Positions 51,796 to 59,067 of a DNA stretch of 64,000 nucleotides are shown one piece after another (position 1 is the first letter of the stretch; each line of letters opens with the position of its first letter). The stretch is taken from contig NZ_JAMOIH010000017.1 in NCBI RefSeq assembly GCF_024448955.1, positions 1 to 64,000 of the forward strand, read 5' to 3'. The notes under the pieces were generated by a model. That model had not been told where the DNA came from. It did not search any database and was given only the letters and a program-made list of their open reading frames with translations. The stretch comes from Stutzerimonas stutzeri. Its GTDB lineage: Bacteria; Pseudomonadota; Gammaproteobacteria; Pseudomonadales; Pseudomonadaceae. The position numbers were made by a program, and so were the translations under genes.

Positions 51796-53148
51796 ATGCA
51801 GCTCAGGCACAAGATCGCCGCACTCAGCATCCTGCCACTGCTGCTGGCCGTGGCGGTGGTCTGCGCGCTGGTGCTGTTCCAGAACCAGCGCCTCGGTGAG
51901 CAACAGGCGCAACTGATCGAAAGCAGTATCCTGGCGAGCAAGCAGGCCGAGTTGAAGAACTATGTCGAAATGGCCCTCAGCACCATCGCGCCGCTCTACG
52001 ACGCTGGCCTCGACGATGAAGAAACCCAACGGAAGGTGCTCGCCGCGTTAGGACGCTTCAGTTTCGGCAGCGACGGTTACTTCTTCGTCTACGACCGCAA
52101 CGGGCGCAACCTGATGCATCCGCGGCAGAGCGAGCTGGTCGGCAAGGACCTGTGGAATATGACCGACCCCAACGGTCTGCCGGTGATCCAGGCCTTGATG
52201 CACAGCGCTCAGACCGGCAAAGGCTTCCAGCGCTACGTCTGGCAGAAGCCCTCGACCGGCCAGTTCGCGGCGAAACTGGCCTATGTGGTGATGCTCGAAC
52301 GCTGGGGCTGGATGCTAGGAACCGGCATCTACCTCGAGGATGTGGATCAGGCGATTCTGCAAGTGCGTGAAGAGGTCGCCAGCGGCATCCACACCACCAT
52401 GCTTGCGATTGCTGCCGTGGCGTTGGTGGCCGTATTGCTGGTATTTGCCAGCGGGCTGACGCTGAACGTCAGTGAGCGACGGTTGGCCGATCGCAAGCTG
52501 CAGCTGCTGACTCAGCGCATCGTCAGCCTGCAGGAAGAAGAGCGCTCGCGCGTCTCCCGAGAGTTGCACGACGGCATCAGTCAGCTGCTGGTGTCGATCA
52601 AGTTCCAGTTCGAGCTGGCCAGCCATGAACTGGCCAGCGGCAACCCGAAGGCGCAGACGACGCTTGATATGGGTATCGAGCGACTGGCTGGCGCGATAGG
52701 CGAGGTGCGGCGAATCTCTCACGACCTGCATCCCTCACTGCTCGACACGCTGGGATTATCGGCGGCGATTGGCCAGCTCGTGGCCGAGTTCGAGCAGCGC
52801 AGTGGGCTGAAGATGCGATACAGCAACGCGCTTGGCGACGGAGAACCGGACGATTCGGTGGCCGTCGCGCTGTTCCGGGTCTTGCAGGAGGCGCTGACCA
52901 ATATCGACCGGCACGCCGCGGCGCAGTCTGTTCATATCAGCCTGGACGGGGACGAAGCCTCTGTGCGCTTGCGCGTTCGAGACGACGGCATCGGCTTCGA
53001 CCCGCGTCGGCTCGATAGCATCAAGGGCAGCGGTATCGGCTTGCGCAACATCCGTGAACGGGTGGAGCACTTCGGTGGACGTTTCAGTCTGCTATCTGCC
53101 GCCGGCGGTACCGAGCTGGACGTGACCTTGCCGGCACGGGCCGGCTGA
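51796..53148 (+). CDS. Cache-domain sensor histidine kinase, NarL/DegS type
   Basis: A 450-aa membrane kinase: first helix at residues about 8-28, a periplasmic Cache-type sensor (about 30-195, with FGSDGYFFVYDRNGRNLMHP and WGWMLGTGIYLEDVD), second helix at about 200-220, then a HisKA_3 dimerisation domain with the phosphorylated H258 in SRVSRELHDGISQ and a HATPase domain (EALTNIDRHA, DDGIGFDP, GIGLRNIRERV). Single Cache sensors of this kind often detect small organic acids; the ligand is unknown. Its partner regulator follows after 34 bases. Confidence 0.9.
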   Translation: MQLRHKIAALSILPLLLAVAVVCALVLFQNQRLGEQQAQLIESSILASKQAELKNYVEMALSTIAPLYDAGLDDEETQRKVLAALGRFSFGSDGYFFVYDRNGRNLMHPRQSELVGKDLWNMTDPNGLPVIQALMHSAQTGKGFQRYVWQKPSTGQFAAKLAYVVMLERWGWMLGTGIYLEDVDQAILQVREEVASGIHTTMLAIAAVALVAVLLVFASGLTLNVSERRLADRKLQLLTQRIVSLQEEERSRVSRELHDGISQLLVSIKFQFELASHELASGNPKAQTTLDMGIERLAGAIGEVRRISHDLHPSLLDTLGLSAAIGQLVAEFEQRSGLKMRYSNALGDGEPDDSVAVALFRVLQEALTNIDRHAAAQSVHISLDGDEASVRLRVRDDGIGFDPRRLDSIKGSGIGLRNIRERVEHFGGRFSLLSAAGGTELDVTLPARAG

Positions 53149-53182
53149 CAAACATCGATCCAAATAATAAGAGGCTCGCTCA

Positions 53183-53821
53183 ATGAACCCGAAAGCTCGC
53201 ATTAAGGTGGTACTGATCGACGACCATGCCTTGGTTCGGGACGGCATCCGCGCGTTGCTGATGGCCGTGCCCGAACTGGATGTAGTAGGGGAGGCCGGCT
53301 GCGGTGCCGAGGCGATCGACCTGCTCGAACGTGTGACAGCAGACGTGGTGCTGATGGACATCGGGCTAAAGGACGTCAACGGTCTCGAACTGACGCAATC
53401 GCTCCGCGAGCGCTTTCCAAGGATTCGCGTGCTGATTCTGAGCATGTACGACAACCAGGAATACGTAACCACCTCGGTTAAAGTCGGCGCCCACGGTTAC
53501 GTGCTGAAGGATGCGCCATCGCGCGAAATCATCGTCGCGATCGAAGCGATTGCTGCCGGTAACACCTACTACAGCGAAGGGATTGCCGAGAAACTGGCCA
53601 GCCGCGGCGGCGAAGAGCGCGAACTGACGCCACGCGAGCGCGAGGTGTTGCTCATGCTCGCCCAGGGGCATAACAACAAGACCATGGCGCGTACGCTGCA
53701 AATCAGCGTGCGGACGGTGGAAACCCATCGGCTGAGCATCCGCCGCAAGCTCGATATCGATCGGCCGGCGGATCTGATGAAGCATGCGATGGTGCATGGC
53801 TGGTTGCCGGGACAGCACTAA
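53183..53821 (+). CDS. NarL/FixJ-family response regulator
   Basis: A 212-aa regulator. The receiver domain has the acidic pair D13-D14, the phospho-acceptor D59 (VVLMDIGLKDVNG) and K109. The LuxR-type helix-turn-helix is near residues 150-205 (LTPREREVLLMLAQGHNNKTMARTLQISVRTVETHR). It is the cognate partner of the Cache kinase by position. Confidence 0.93.
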   Translation: MNPKARIKVVLIDDHALVRDGIRALLMAVPELDVVGEAGCGAEAIDLLERVTADVVLMDIGLKDVNGLELTQSLRERFPRIRVLILSMYDNQEYVTTSVKVGAHGYVLKDAPSREIIVAIEAIAAGNTYYSEGIAEKLASRGGEERELTPREREVLLMLAQGHNNKTMARTLQISVRTVETHRLSIRRKLDIDRPADLMKHAMVHGWLPGQH

Positions 53822-53910
53822 CGGCGGCTGTCACGCTCAAACGCAGGCGGTGTGGTCTATTGGCCGTGGCGCTGCCACATCGAATGCAACCAACAGTCTC
53901 CGGAATCTGC

Positions 53911-54372
53911 ATGACTGACAAATCACTCGGAATGAGAGCTCCGCCTCCCTTGGTCTACCTGATCTTCATCGGCGGTGCCTGGGGATTGGCGAGCGGGGTG
54001 CCGCTCGACCTGCCGGTACATGAGCTGGCGTCCTGCGCCGGCTGGGCTTCGATTGTACTGGGCGTCCTGCTGATGGTCTGGGCGGCATGGGAGATGTTTC
54101 GTCATCGCACCACCATCAATCCCTATGGCAAACCGAGCAGCCTGTTGCAGAGCGGGCCGTTCAGCTTTACGCGCAACCCGATCTACCTGGCCGATACGAT
54201 GATCTATTGTGGCATTGCGCTGCTGCTCGCCAGTCTCTGGCCCTGGCTGCTGCTACCCTTGCTGTTTCTCTGCATGCAGCGCACCGTGATCGTTCACGAG
54301 GAACATTTGCTGACGTGTCTGTTTGGCGACGAATACCGCGCTTACCGGCGGCGAGTACGCCGTTGGCTCTGA
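53911..54372 (+). CDS. Isoprenylcysteine carboxyl methyltransferase-like membrane protein
   Basis: A 153-aa protein with about four membrane helices and the ICMT/PEMT-family core: NPYGKPSSLLQSGPFSFTRNPIYLADTMIYCG (about residues 70-101) and EEHLLTCLFGDEYRAYRRRVRRW at the C-terminus. Bacterial members methylate unknown substrates or lipids. ATG 53911 follows GGAA; the frame extends 17 residues upstream without support. It lies between the two-component pair and mapZ. Confidence 0.8.
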   Translation: MTDKSLGMRAPPPLVYLIFIGGAWGLASGVPLDLPVHELASCAGWASIVLGVLLMVWAAWEMFRHRTTINPYGKPSSLLQSGPFSFTRNPIYLADTMIYCGIALLLASLWPWLLLPLLFLCMQRTVIVHEEHLLTCLFGDEYRAYRRRVRRWL

Positions 54373-54435: not shown

Positions 54436-54819
54436 ATGACCGAAAACACCCACGACCGTCGGCGCTTCCAGCGTATCGACTTCGACGCCGTAACGGAGCT
54501 CGTCCAGGGCCAGAACCGCTGGCCGGTCGAGCTGCACGATCTGTCATTGAAAGGATTGCTGGTCCATCGCCCGTCGAGCTGGGATGCCGACCCCACGCAA
54601 CCGTTCCACGCGCGGATTCGTCTATCCGACGATGCGGAAGTGCGCATGGAGGTCGAGATGGCGCATGCCGAAGGCGAACTGATCGGCCTGGTCTGTCGCC
54701 ATATTGATGTCGAATCGATCAGCCATCTGCGGCGTCTGGTCGAACTCAATCTGGGCGATGAAGCGTTGCTCGACCGCGAGTTGGCTGCGCTCGGCGAGCG
54801 TGACGACGCGAGCCGATAA
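54436..54819 (+). CDS. mapZ: PilZ-domain c-di-GMP receptor, MapZ-like
   Basis: A 127-aa single PilZ domain. The c-di-GMP-binding arginine motif RRRFQR is at residues 8-13 and the DLSLKG motif (DxSxxG) at 35-40. The tail [27 protein letters not shown] closely matches what I recall of P. aeruginosa PA4608 (MapZ), which inhibits the chemotaxis methyltransferase CheR1. ATG 54436 is chosen over an in-frame GTG 12 codons upstream. A radA remnant lies just downstream. Confidence 0.88.
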
Positions 54820-54921
54820 AGCAAAAAGCCAGAAAACGCTGGAAGGCTGAACGAAAGACGCCTGGGGTTCGACAGACATGTGGGGGCGTGACCTTAGTGT
54901 TCTCCAGCGTTCAGCACTTTT

Positions 54922-55017
54922 TGAACAGCGCGTCCAGCGCCTACCCGAACCGCGCACCTTGCAGCCCCGTCAGCGCATGCTTTGACGCGTCGCCCTTGGG
55001 CGCGATGGCGCGCTTGG
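54922..55017 (-). pseudogene. Decayed radA 3'-end remnant
   Basis: On the minus strand this reads KRAIAPKGDASKHALTGLQ, then GARFG, a TAG stop, and ALDALFK. The end of the intact radA reads KRAIVPKGNAPKEAPAGLQ, IIAVTRLEQ, ALDALFE. About 20 residues match, the reading frame is kept, three codons are lost and one in-frame stop has appeared. At DNA level GCCCTTGGGC and GATGGCGCGCTTG are shared. Orientation is the same as intact radA (57591-58952). Confidence 0.85.
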
Positions 55018-55230
55018 AATTGTGCTGACGGTCTCCGTCCAGGCACTCAGGGGCGGGCGATTCTCGCCGGACTAGCCTGCTCGCCAAACAGTAATAAATC
55101 CGTAAGGAACGCCCGGACTCAGCCGACGAGCCGGGGTCGGTTGCTGCAACGTGCGCTGAAGCGCCTGGCGATCGCGATTTCTCATCGCAGCCGTCAAGCG
55201 AGCCATGGGGAGTGGGTGGGCTCGGTTATC

Positions 55231-55242
55231 TGGTAAGACCGG
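55231..55242 (+). promoter_or_regulatory. Operator O1 for the FadR-type regulator (candidate)
   Basis: TGGTAAGACCGG contains GGTAAGACC, the reverse of the GGTCTTACC core typical of LldR/PdhR-type operators. It lies 24 bases upstream of the dctA -35 element. Confidence 0.6.
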
Positions 55243-55266
55243 TCAGCTCAATTTTCAGATTATCCC

Positions 55267-55294
55267 TTGACTTTACGCTTTAGGTCGCTAGAGA
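55267..55294 (+). promoter_or_regulatory. dctA promoter (candidate)
   Basis: TTGACT (55267-55272), a 16-base spacer and TAGAGA (55289-55294) form a fair sigma-70 promoter about 100 bases before the dctA start, framed by the two operator copies. Confidence 0.6.
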
Positions 55295-55315
55295 CTGGCC
55301 TCGCATTGGACATAC

Positions 55316-55327
55316 CGGTAAGACCAC
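55316..55327 (+). promoter_or_regulatory. Operator O2 for the FadR-type regulator (candidate)
   Basis: CGGTAAGACCAC repeats the GGTAAGACC core of O1 in direct orientation, 85 bases away (about eight helical turns). It lies about 20 bases downstream of the -10, where binding would block transcription. Confidence 0.6.
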
Positions 55328-55392
55328 AATAATCAAGTTCTGGCACCGTACGCAGATCGCGGAAGCTGGAACGCCGACTAGAGATCCTTCCC

Positions 55393-56697
55393 ATGCTCAA
55401 ATGGTGCTCGCGTTCGATATTCCTTCAAGTTGTTCTGGGGTTGATGCTTGGCATCGCCTGCGGACTCAGCTTTCCTGAATTTTCCACTCAGCTCAAACCT
55501 TTGGGCGATGGCTTTATCAAGCTGATCAAGATGCTGATCGGCCTGATCGTCTTCTGCGTTGTCGTCAGTGGTATTTCCGGTGCCGGTGACTTGAAAAAGG
55601 TGGGCCGCATAGGTCTCAAGTCGGTCATCTATTTCGAGGTGCTGACCACCATCGCGCTGGTGATCGGGCTGGTGCTGGCATTCAGTACCGGTGTCGGCAG
55701 TGGCGCCAATATTCATCTGGATGAACTGGCCGCTGCCGATATCGCCGGGTTCGCCGAGCGTGGCCAGCAGATGCAGGGAACGACCGACTTCCTGTTGGCG
55801 CTGATTCCTTCGTCCGTCGTCGGTGCCTTTGCCGAGAACAATATTCTTCAGGTGCTGCTCTTCTCGGTGCTGTTCGGTAGCGCATTGAATCTTGTGGGCG
55901 AGCCGGCTGCCGGCATTTCGAGGCTGATCAATGAGCTGAGCCACGTGATCTTTCGCATCATGGGCATGATCGTGCGCCTGGCGCCGATCGGCGTGTTCGG
56001 TGCCATTGCCTTCACCACTAGTAAATACGGCCTGGAGTCGCTGCAGCATCTGGGCGGCCTGGTTGTGCTGTTCTATGTCACCTGCATCGCCTTTGTCATG
56101 CTCGTCCTGGGCTTCGTGATGCGCTTGTCCGGGCTGAGAATCGTGCCGCTGTTCAAGTATCTGCGTGAAGAACTGACCATCGTCCTCGGAACGGCGTCGT
56201 CGGATGCGGTGTTGCCGCAGATCATGCGCAAGCTTGAGCATCTGGGTATCGGCAGCTCGACTGTCGGACTGGTCATCCCGACTGGTTATTCATTCAATCT
56301 GGACGGCTTTTCCATCTACCTGACACTGGCCATCGTGTTCATCGCTAACGCAACCGGAACGCCGCTGGCGACCTCCGATCTGTTGACGATACTGCTAGTT
56401 TCTCTAATTACCTCTAAAGGCGCCCACGGCATTCCCGGTTCGGCTCTGGTCATCCTCGCCGCAACCCTGACGGCCGTGCCGGCAATCCCGGTGGTGGGGC
56501 TGGTGCTGGTGCTGGCAGTGGATTGGTTCATGGGCATCGGCCGTGCATTGACCAACCTGATCGGCAACTGTGTCGCTACGGTGGCTATCGCTCGCTGGGA
56601 AAAGGATATCGACCTCGATCGGGCGAACAAGGTACTGGCTGGTGATGAGGGTTACGGCTTCCAGGCTCTCAAGGCTAGCTCACCGCTCCAGCATTGA
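55393..56697 (+). CDS. dctA: Dicarboxylate/amino acid:cation symporter, DctA-like
   Basis: A 434-aa DAACS-family transporter with the diagnostic motifs GTASSDAVLPQIMRKLE (about residues 265-281), PTGYSFNLDGFSIYLTLA (about 296-313), ITSKGAHGIPGSALVILAATL and DWFMGIGRALTNLIGNCVATV (about 377-397). It probably takes up C4-dicarboxylates or a related acid with protons or sodium. The only ribosome-binding site is a weak AGAG. A FadR-type regulator follows 74 bases on. The block lies between mapZ and radA, which are neighbours in P. aeruginosa. Confidence 0.88.
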   Translation: MLKWCSRSIFLQVVLGLMLGIACGLSFPEFSTQLKPLGDGFIKLIKMLIGLIVFCVVVSGISGAGDLKKVGRIGLKSVIYFEVLTTIALVIGLVLAFSTGVGSGANIHLDELAAADIAGFAERGQQMQGTTDFLLALIPSSVVGAFAENNILQVLLFSVLFGSALNLVGEPAAGISRLINELSHVIFRIMGMIVRLAPIGVFGAIAFTTSKYGLESLQHLGGLVVLFYVTCIAFVMLVLGFVMRLSGLRIVPLFKYLREELTIVLGTASSDAVLPQIMRKLEHLGIGSSTVGLVIPTGYSFNLDGFSIYLTLAIVFIANATGTPLATSDLLTILLVSLITSKGAHGIPGSALVILAATLTAVPAIPVVGLVLVLAVDWFMGIGRALTNLIGNCVATVAIARWEKDIDLDRANKVLAGDEGYGFQALKASSPLQH

Positions 56698-56771
56698 GGG
56701 GACGGCAGCTCAGGGCTTGAGTCTGTCAGCGTTGGGCTGACAGACTCGGTTGGCCGATACTTGGAATTTTC

Positions 56772-57482
56772 ATGGAGCGAACGGTGATTACCTCGCGGAC
56801 AGTTGTCGATTCAATTGTAGAGAAGCTTCGTTCCGCGCTGGCCCAGGGGCAATGGCGGTCAGGTGAAATGCTGCCCGGGCAGCGTGAACTCGCCGAGCAG
56901 TGGGGCATCAGCCGTCCGAGCCTGCGCGAGGCGATCATCGTCCTGGAAACCCAGGGGCTGTTGCGCACCATGCCCGGCAAAGGGGTCGTCGTGCTCGATG
57001 CGCCAAGCGTACCGGCGGCCCAGGGGAACGTCGCCGTCGCCAGCCTGGAACACGTTCTGCAGCTTCGCTACTCCCTCGAACCCTTCATCGTCGGACTCGT
57101 GGCGCAGGCCATCAGCAGCAAGGAGGTTGGCCAGTTGCGGCTTATCCTGATGGACATGCGCGAGGCCCTCGACGCCAGCGACAGTGAGGCGGGCGCCAAC
57201 GCGTACATCGCTTTTCACGAAGAGCTGTTTACCCTGACATCCAACCCGATTTTTCAGAATGTGGTGCAACAGACCAGCATTGCGCTCAAGCAGAGTGCGG
57301 ACATGCTGCGCAATTCTCCCGAGCATCTGGCCGAGCGGCTGGAGGAAAACGAGGCAGTAGTGCGCGCCATACGCAACAAGAACAGCGCCGTGGCCAGCGC
57401 CGCGATGCGCCGGCACATTCTCATGGAGGGAGCAAGGATGGGCGTTCAGCTGAACATCCCCGACGAACAGCCGGTGCTGTAG
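56772..57482 (+). CDS. GntR-family (FadR/FCD) transcriptional regulator
   Basis: A 236-aa regulator: winged helix-turn-helix at about residues 10-75 (PGQRELAEQWGISRPSLREAIIVLETQGLLR) and an all-helical FCD ligand domain (about 90-225) with EPFIVGLVAQ, AYIAFHEELF and MRRHI supplying metal-binding D/H residues. Relatives such as LldR, PdhR and GlcC sense organic acids. GTG 56784 may be the real start, as GGAG lies six bases before it; ATG 56772 has no such site. It probably controls dctA through the GGTAAGACC operators. Confidence 0.87.
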   Translation: MERTVITSRTVVDSIVEKLRSALAQGQWRSGEMLPGQRELAEQWGISRPSLREAIIVLETQGLLRTMPGKGVVVLDAPSVPAAQGNVAVASLEHVLQLRYSLEPFIVGLVAQAISSKEVGQLRLILMDMREALDASDSEAGANAYIAFHEELFTLTSNPIFQNVVQQTSIALKQSADMLRNSPEHLAERLEENEAVVRAIRNKNSAVASAAMRRHILMEGARMGVQLNIPDEQPVL

Positions 57483-57569
57483 TCCAAAGCCGACTTAGGC
57501 ACGACCGGCCTCTTGGCGTGCATGCTCGGCGTCAGCTCATGGGGCGCAGCCGAGCAACAGCCGGTGCTG
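57466..57569 (+). repeat. 14-bp direct repeat at the end of the regulator gene
   Basis: AACAGCCGGTGCTG occurs at 57466-57479, the last codons of the regulator gene, and again at 57556-57569 in the gap before radA, 90 bases apart. With the preceding bases 17 of 19 positions agree. Confidence 0.7.
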
Positions 57570-57590
57570 ACCGGTACCTGAGTCGTTTCG

Positions 57591-58952
57591 CTACTCAAAC
57601 AGCGCATCCAGCGCCTGCTCCAGACGCGTCACGGCGATGATCTGCAGTCCGGCTGGCGCTTCTTTCGGCGCGTTGCCCTTGGGCACGATGGCGCGCTTGA
57701 AGCCATGTTTGGCCGCTTCCTTCAGTCGTTCCTGGCCGCTGGGCACCGGCCGGATCTCACCGGACAGGCCCACCTCGCCGAATACCAGCAGATCGGTATC
57801 CAGCGGTCGATTGCGCAGGCTGGAAATCACCGCGGCCATCAGCGCCAGATCCGACGCTGTTTCCAGCACTTTCACGCCACCCACCACGTTAATGAACACG
57901 TCCTGATCATAGGTGGGAATGCCGCCGTGGCGATGCAGCACCGCCAGCAGCATGGCCAGGCGGTTCTGGTCCAGGCCGAGGGTGACGCGTCGCGGATTGG
58001 CCATATGACTGGTGTCGACCAACGCCTGCACCTCCACCAGCATCGGCCGGGTGCCTTCCCAAGTGGCCATGACCACGCTGCCGGGCACCGCTTCCTGGGC
58101 GCGGGTGAGGAAGATCGCTGAGGGGTTGGTGACTTCCTTGAGGCCCTTGTCGGTCATGCCGAACACGCCGAGTTCGTTGACCGCGCCGAAGCGATTCTTT
58201 ACCGCGCGCAGCAGCCGCAGACGGCCGTCGGACTCGCCCTCGAAATACAGCACGGTGTCGACCATGTGCTCCAGCACGCGCGGCCCGGCCAAGGCGCCTT
58301 CCTTGGTTACGTGGCCGACGAGGAAGATCGCCGTGCCGCTCTGCTTGGCAAAACGCACGAGCAACGCCGCGCTTTCGCGCACCTGGGCGACGCCGCCTGG
58401 GGCCGATTGCAGCTGCTCGGTGAAGATGGTCTGGATCGAGTCGATGACCATCACCTTGGGCTTTTCCAGCCGTGCGGTGGCGATGATGGATTCGATGCAG
58501 GTCTCGGTCATCACCTTCAATTTGTCCTGCGGCAGGTCCAGCCGCCGTGCGCGCATGGCGACCTGCTGTTGTGATTCTTCGCCAGTGACGTACAGCGCCG
58601 GGAAACGCTGGGCGATGGCGCACAGCGTCTGCAGCAGAATGGTGGATTTGCCAATGCCGGGGTCGCCGCCGATCAGCACCACCGAACCATCCACCAGGCC
58701 GCCGCCGAGCACACGGTCCAGTTCACCGGATGCGGTGGAAAAGCGCGGCACTTCCTCGACGCTGACCTCGGCCAGGGTTTTGATATTGGCCTGTTCACCC
58801 GCCCAGCCGGCACGCCCGGACGGCGGTGCGGCGCCGTCGATGATCGTTTCGACAAGGGTGTTCCAGGCGCCGCAATCACCGCACTGGCCGGCCCACTTGG
58901 GAAAGGTCGAGCCGCACTCGGTGCAGCCGTACATGCGCTTGGCCTTGGCCAC
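57591..58952 (-). CDS. radA: DNA repair protein RadA
   Basis: RadA (453 aa) is a RecA-like branch-migration helicase. It has the zinc finger C10, C13, C24, C27 (YGCTECGSTFPKWAGQCGDC), Walker A GGDPGIGKST near residues 97-106, the RadA motif KNRFGAVNE (about 258-266) and a C-terminal Lon-like domain. The start is GTG 58952 with GGAG six bases upstream, giving M-AKAKRMYGC; a longer frame to 59027 is not conserved. A degenerate duplicate of its last ~35 codons lies at 54922-55017. Confidence 0.96.
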   Translation of the reverse strand: MAKAKRMYGCTECGSTFPKWAGQCGDCGAWNTLVETIIDGAAPPSGRAGWAGEQANIKTLAEVSVEEVPRFSTASGELDRVLGGGLVDGSVVLIGGDPGIGKSTILLQTLCAIAQRFPALYVTGEESQQQVAMRARRLDLPQDKLKVMTETCIESIIATARLEKPKVMVIDSIQTIFTEQLQSAPGGVAQVRESAALLVRFAKQSGTAIFLVGHVTKEGALAGPRVLEHMVDTVLYFEGESDGRLRLLRAVKNRFGAVNELGVFGMTDKGLKEVTNPSAIFLTRAQEAVPGSVVMATWEGTRPMLVEVQALVDTSHMANPRRVTLGLDQNRLAMLLAVLHRHGGIPTYDQDVFINVVGGVKVLETASDLALMAAVISSLRNRPLDTDLLVFGEVGLSGEIRPVPSGQERLKEAAKHGFKRAIVPKGNAPKEAPAGLQIIAVTRLEQALDALFE

Positions 58953-59067
58953 GGGGAACTCCGCGTCGGGAAAATGGAGTCGCATGATAACGGCTGGCTT
59001 GATCGGCATCAGCCACAAAGGGCGCAAGACGCGCCAGACTGCATGAAACCGTCCCGGAGTGAGACCT

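Follow-up and report, generated by a model that had tools for sequence, protein, structure and literature searches.

A dctA-gntR cassette between mapZ and radA in Stutzerimonas stutzeri: a probable old insertion beside a decayed radA 3' end

Pseudomonas stutzeri is now named Stutzerimonas stutzeri, and the original paper on homology-facilitated illegitimate recombination in this organism is reportedly that of Meier and Wackernagel, of 2003. This kind of recombination has been reported in transformable P. stutzeri, Acinetobacter and Streptococcus; according to the part of the source used here, it usually involves 3-10 bp of microhomology together with a similar-sized deletion in the recipient, and in P. 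stutzeri it is about 10^6 times rarer than homologous recombination (PMC3240628). For the displaced immunity genes of the T6SS of Vibrio cholerae and for the orphan 3' regions of Rhs, the same type of recombination is suggested by the authors of a second study, of which a part was likewise used (PMC5361080).

We analysed a stretch of 64,000 nucleotides of S. stutzeri (the window: positions 1 to 64,000 of contig NZ_JAMOIH010000017.1), in which dctA and gntR lie between mapZ and radA. As in the cases set out in that part of PMC3240628, foreign DNA would here have entered beside a shared stretch, presumably with one homologous end, and with neither an integrase nor a transposase; in contrast to them, a second gene end has been kept and is decaying, no similar-sized deletion is visible, and the joint is too old for microhomology to be recognised. 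The T6SS and Rhs cases, as described in the part of PMC5361080 used here, are alike in that the arrival of a module shifts the older 3' part downstream, where a remnant stays, but the displaced immunity genes of V. cholerae are kept and arrays build up, whereas here the tail of a single housekeeping gene decays without constraint. In family group g15, which is probably Pseudomonas in the wide sense, a locus running from glyA to mapZ and radA contains the same gene pair with the same upstream sites, but the cassette stands there upstream of mapZ (in 8/20 fetched loci) and not between mapZ and radA. We found nothing on this mapZ-radA or dctA locus in the literature, judging from titles and the openings of abstracts. 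With this locus, one more instance joins a known kind; as gene exchange between bacteria goes, it is clear but rather ordinary.

The junction in the window and in congeners

In the window, a GGDEF/EAL-type gene (47047) and glyA (50435) are followed by a kinase-regulator pair, by a methyltransferase-type gene and then by mapZ; the features around the junction are collected in Table 1. The last residues encoded by mapZ, RDDASR, are unlike those of the congeners whose tails were compared. On the other side, radA is complete by its profile, and an alternative TTG start upstream, at 59027, is likewise open.

Table 1. Features around the mapZ-radA junction (positions in the window)
Feature	Position	Strand	Evidence or remark
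mapZ (PilZ domain), to the left of the insertion	54436..54819	+	PF07238, 55.9 bits
Left filler	54820..54919		54821-54865 is similar to a repeat that the congener G009 has at six places
Decayed second radA 3' end (remnant)	54920..55115	-	nhmmer, 73.1 bits, E 3e-22
Filler after the remnant	55116..55229		short matches only among 183 loci
Upstream region of dctA, two operator-like sites (55230-55245, 55313-55326)	55230..55392	+	conserved in 15/15 rows
dctA, C4-dicarboxylate transporter	55393..56697	+	PF00375, 339 bits; NF009587, 734.7 bits (cutoff 570)
gntR, FCD-type GntR regulator	56772..57482	+	PF00392 and PF07729, above cutoff
Right filler	57483..57590		contains, at 57550-57569, a 20-nt direct repeat whose first copy is in the gntR end
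Intact radA, to the right of the insertion	57591..58979	-	TIGR00416, 661.3 bits (cutoff 403.05)

Our genus set comprises 56 genomes including this one. A mapZ match exists in 53 of them, and the locus was fetched from all 52 others; G005, G009 and G025, which are without a mapZ match, are excluded from this count. In 52/52 congeners mapZ directly faces one convergent radA, the stop codons of the two genes being 3-241 bp apart, and the fetched mapZ-radA stretch contains neither dctA nor a second radA tail or remnant. The preliminary description of this DNA had predicted that strains lacking dctA at this place would have mapZ directly against a single radA, which is what we see, and the contrary case that it had named, a strain devoid of the block and still carrying the remnant, occurs in none of the 52. 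The similarity of the window to G041, its nearest relative, and to G024 ends at 54799 on the left and restarts at 57589 and 57590 on the right, and from 57589 on the radA side is 97.3% identical in DNA to G041. Among the 183 loci, all radA 3'-end matches below 300 bits, six in number, are copies of this place, and the sampled genomes (one per species) yielded no second carrier of the insertion. The insertion of a transporter gene and of the gene of a likely regulator at the mapZ-radA junction, in an old event, is supported.

The fillers have few matches of their own. The repeat-like part of the left one is 83-85% identical, over about 40-48 bp, to the six places of G009, each of which lies within a repeat of about 140 bp. 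The filler which follows the remnant has no match below E 0.05 elsewhere in the 183 loci, apart from 25 bp (E 0.042) and from matches starting at 55230. Nothing else in these loci matched the right filler except 27 bp (E 0.023), and in the 56 genomes of the genus its top match away from this locus reached only E 0.29. The two copies of the 20-nt direct repeat, at 57460-57479 in the gntR end and in the right filler, are identical at 18/20 positions. The right filler also resembles the end of a signal peptide.

The decayed radA 3' end

A broken copy of the RadA C-terminus had been claimed on the minus strand at 54922-55017. We built an nhmmer model from 62 radA 3' ends (52 from congeners, 8 from group g15, one from congener G009 and the window's own), and it matched the minus strand from 54920 to 55115, while the runner-up outside radA in the 64-kb window scored 4.1 bits. 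Hence the remnant is 196 bp long and not 96 bp as first read, about twice the first estimate. When the window's own end was omitted, the resulting 61-end model gave the segment 54820-55292 a score of 73.2 bits, and out of 500 dinucleotide shuffles 47 had any match at all, the top one reaching 2.2 bits. The broken copy is thus real, its alignment scoring far above the shuffled sequence with which it was to be compared, and the comparison also bears out that it has the orientation of the intact radA lying 2.6 kb off. With blastn, the sole non-self match of 54880-55060 in its own genome is the end of the intact radA (57598-57699, 72%, E 5.8e-8); the two radA ends are 64% identical across 196 aligned columns.

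Against the model, the remnant shows one gap of 10 bases, one of 8-9 bases and single-base gaps; there is a TAG in frame with the final residues, and the position of the radA stop lacks a stop codon. With respect to the consensus, it is changed at 22/66 first, 15/66 second and 21/64 third codon positions, whereas the intact radA compared with one g15 radA (L148) is changed at 7/74, 2/74 and 33/74. As the differences of the remnant are spread almost evenly over the codon positions, it is under no protein constraint and its decay is unconstrained.

Two comparisons bear on which of the two radA ends was displaced. At 11 diagnostic sites, the remnant has the state of the genus's own radA at 6, that of the relatives' radA at 1 and neither at 4, which is a weak lean towards the genus. 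In the tree, the two starred sets put it among the genus's own radA ends, with an end branch of 7.2 changes per column which makes its place unsure, and AU tests reject neither a grouping of the remnant with the g15 ends (p 0.49) nor one with the genus (p 0.42).

The cassette and its relatives

The inserted unit is a cassette made of operator-like sites, dctA and gntR, which extends from about 55230 to about 57479; these limits match the first conserved site and the end of gntR. We delimit it in this way because the sites are kept in all the rows of an alignment of the upstream region (14 relatives aligned out of 20 fetched, plus the window) and because similarity fades directly 5' of the first site: GGTNAGACC of the first operator-like site and ACCGGTAAGACCA of the second are each found in 15/15 rows. 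The gntR product may act on these candidate upstream sites and would then control dctA.

The transporter belongs to the DctA family by its NF009587 profile, which covers residues 2-419 of 434, and this copy is the only match in its own genome at E <= 1e-30. For gntR, no NCBIfam cutoff was reached among the matches listed. Within the genus, the nearest congener protein to DctA is 51% identical, and the DNA match of greatest length covers about 0.8 kb at 66% identity, both in G052. Among the matches listed for 398 family genomes, the best one to 56600-57590, in G213, has 81% identity along about 700 bp, nearly all of the top-ranking full-length ones are from group g15, and none of those to gntR runs past 57479. 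In 390 genomes of the order, gntR was matched at E <= 1e-40 in 6 besides this one, all of them g15. Plasmid records gave 200 with a match, none of which had a single place covering 80% of the query; the best 20 of these 200 cover the dctA part. When the gntR end and the radA end were joined into one query, 396 of 398 g15 genomes matched; the matches listed are separate pieces of the gntR end or of the radA end, and a carrier may still be present among these genomes.

We fetched 20 relatives' loci, chosen by their gntR match (17 from g15, 2 from g9 and 1 from g12). In this set, selected as it is on gntR, dctA and gntR are adjacent in 20/20 loci; the identity of DctA is 85-87% in 16 of them and 75-81% in the other four. 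Downstream of the cassette, mapZ and radA follow in the same relative orientation in 8/20 loci, with 4.4-4.6 kb between gntR and mapZ. In 11 loci mapZ was not found within the 5.8-6.9 kb fetched downstream of gntR, and in the last one the fetched stretch is too short to reach it. A glyA match lies within the fetched stretch in 10 loci. The order in one locus (L144) is a GGDEF/EAL-type gene, glyA, dctA, gntR, a second GntR-type gene, a CobW-like gene, a CstA-like gene, mapZ, an ORF of 259 aa and radA; glyA was identified by its match to that of the window, and we take the GGDEF/EAL-type, second GntR-type, CobW-like and CstA-like genes to be what these names say. The cassette of the window is thus within a few kb of its place in the relatives, and chance is an unlikely reason, since these few kb are to be set against a 4.35-Mb genome. 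As order and orientation are the same in 8/20 relatives, shared flanks could guide a transfer.

Age and origin of the arrangement

With its 3' end omitted, the intact radA differs from that of G041 at 17/253 fourfold sites (6.7%) and from that of G024 at 60/250. In the remnant, 37/132 sites of codon positions 1 and 2 are changed (28%). This looks like too much for an insertion which followed the split from G041, and even when faster decay and alignment errors are allowed for, the remnant looks much older than that split. Of the preliminary claim that a dctA-GntR block was inserted at the radA 3' end, the insertion itself therefore stands, the site being empty in 52/52 congeners, but a simple insertion in this lineage, with the tail decaying since then, is not supported, as the remnant looks too decayed for it.

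The mean fourfold divergence from the fetched relatives is 0.49 for dctA and 0.50 for gntR (20 loci each), against 0.42 for glyA (10 loci) and 0.40 for radA (8 loci); that of mapZ, 0.62 (8 loci, 29-34 sites each), is higher than those of the cassette. The cassette has thus diverged from its nearest known relatives to the same degree as the core genes around it, which likewise does not support a simple insertion in this lineage. A recent import from a sampled g15-type donor was considered and rejected, the divergence of the cassette not being below that of glyA and radA, and this rules out all the fetched relatives as donors in a recent transfer; an unsampled donor at an equal distance could have been the source of one.

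The flanks were compared with the empty junction of G041. Close to the insertion, 14/110 sites differ on the mapZ side against 13/524 farther off (Fisher p 2.9e-5), and 10/114 differ in radA against 29/1280 (Fisher p 7.5e-4), the end window being the most divergent of the radA windows. A three-way comparison at the mapZ end gives 5/110 differences between this genome and G024 and 14/110 between G041 and each of them. At the radA end the result is ambiguous (9/76 between this genome and G041, 8/75 between this genome and G024, 11/75 between G041 and G024), so that the divergent tract on this side could belong to this genome or to G041; in the remaining part of radA the corresponding differences are 30/1315, 108/1314 and 115/1314. 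A recent homologous import into this genome, which the raised flank divergence from G041 might indicate, is weakened, as the outlier on the mapZ side is G041 and the radA side is ambiguous. The empty junction of G041 may itself be a recombined, secondary state.

Our best explanation, which we put forward tentatively and with somewhat less than even confidence, is that the cassette was inserted long ago by homologous recombination, with radA as the anchor and an illegitimate joint at the opposite end, and that the arrangement predates the split from the nearest relative. The cassette would have entered the junction between the converging mapZ and radA, leaving two radA 3' ends in direct orientation; one would complete a working radA, while the other, cut off beside mapZ, would have decayed to the present remnant. 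Recombination of the RecA type anchored in the radA end, together with the illegitimate joint, would make an integrase or a transposase unnecessary. If the arrangement predates the split from the nearest sampled relatives, it would either have been inherited here while the relatives regained an empty junction by recombination, or have been received ready-made from an unsampled relative. We infer the radA anchor, the illegitimate joint and the order of events from a block which is flanked by two radA ends in direct orientation; mapZ and radA are both kept, with a loss of a few bases at most being visible where a deletion of similar size was looked for, and the illegitimate joint is too old to be read. 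These last points weigh against this route, as do the rarity of such events, the ambiguous affinity of the remnant, the 11 loci in which mapZ was not found, the divergence of mapZ, which exceeds that of the cassette, the radA-side tract, which could belong to either genome, and the lack of a second carrier.

The main rival to radA-anchored insertion, which we regard as somewhat unlikely, is a rearrangement of an ancestral locus with glyA, dctA and gntR ahead of mapZ and radA, by tandem duplication from dctA to the radA end or by integration of a circle, followed by deletions. Either process is expected to leave a direct repeat of the radA end, the 8/20 loci described above have the genes in the required order and relative orientation, and the divergence of the cassette is compatible with common descent with the locus. 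However, one copy of dctA-gntR and all the genes intervening between gntR and mapZ would have to be lost, the fillers hold no trace of these genes beyond weak six-frame matches (best E 0.021), and the product is absent from all 52 congeners examined. The preliminary description had compared the block to elements which target gene 3' ends, while remarking that no integrase is visible. The remark is accurate, since between the two radA ends we recognised no intact genes but dctA and gntR; an element of this type is not indicated, because the ends are only 64% identical over 196 columns and no other intact genes lie between them. It is in our view quite improbable that the radA 3' end was the target of a site-specific element which restored the gene on integration and has since lost its integrase: such an element would account for the position at a gene 3' end and for the direct repeat of that end, but the repeat is not a short identical core (although decay could have erased the identity), the block holds no recognised genes other than these two, and 52/52 congeners have no such element at this site.

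Transposition of the block within a unit borne by an IS or by repeats appears highly improbable. The repeat-like segment of the left filler and the 20-nt direct repeat (57460/57550) would suit it, but no transposase is among the genes found, the 20-nt repeat is confined to one side, and the inverted repeats in 54800-55420 and 57440-57620, searched separately, are imperfect or small, and the block is not framed by any of them. There was no hint of a phage either. That the second radA end is a chance similarity or an assembly artefact is almost inconceivable: we found nothing in favour of it, the score of the remnant is far beyond that of any shuffle, the block sits within the contig, with 6 kb or more between it and either end of the window, and the two radA ends are presumably too different to confuse an assembler.

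Beyond radA-anchored insertion, the stretch from glyA through mapZ to radA might be a site of exchange which works without an integrase, a proposal that we consider unlikely, if worth stating. Homologous recombination in its conserved ends, radA above all, would have brought small metabolic cassettes in and out for as long as the genus has existed; a dying copy of the radA end would remain after each entry, and after each exit only a recombined junction like that of G041.

A decaying gene end of this kind can mark an insertion which shows no visible mobile-element enzymes, and can also date it roughly. Where the closest relative has an empty site, this state is not necessarily ancestral, because the relative's own junction may have been recombined. 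Both considerations matter when gains and losses of genes are deduced from comparisons of genomes.

Sequences flanking the dctA-gntR insertion

The final 20 nt of gntR before the stop are found a second time 90 bp downstream, with 18 of 20 positions identical, and the two copies share one reading frame. The downstream copy may be the original end of gntR. The filler between gntR and the intact radA can be read as a peptide resembling a signal-sequence end; elsewhere in the genus its best match has an E value of 0.29.

The 45 bp just 3' of mapZ are similar to a repeat of about 140 bp which occupies six places in the congener G009. Elsewhere in the genome to which the window belongs, they have weak matches only (best E 0.02). 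They may constitute a REP-type element.

Features around the mapZ-radA junction (positions in the window)
Feature	Positions
Genes between glyA and mapZ	51796-54372
Repeat-like sequence	54821-54865
gntR end, first copy	57460-57479
Peptide reading, right filler	57495-57578
gntR end, second copy	57550-57569

The corresponding region in relatives

In G041, the nearest sampled relative, whose mapZ-radA junction is empty, divergence is raised over a tract comprising the 3' ends of both genes, clearly so on the mapZ side. This tract looks as if it had been replaced by recombination.

Between glyA and mapZ, the window carries genes for a Cache-domain histidine kinase, a LuxR-type response regulator and a PEMT-family methyltransferase. 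At the corresponding position of L144, a locus of the family group g15 (probably Pseudomonas in the wide sense), there are instead dctA, gntR and further genes, which we take to be CobW-like and CstA-like. The distance from mapZ to radA is about 0.8 kb in two g15 loci, L141 and L144. In L144 this interval contains a 259-aa ORF, and the mapZ-radA junction therefore accepts other inserts.
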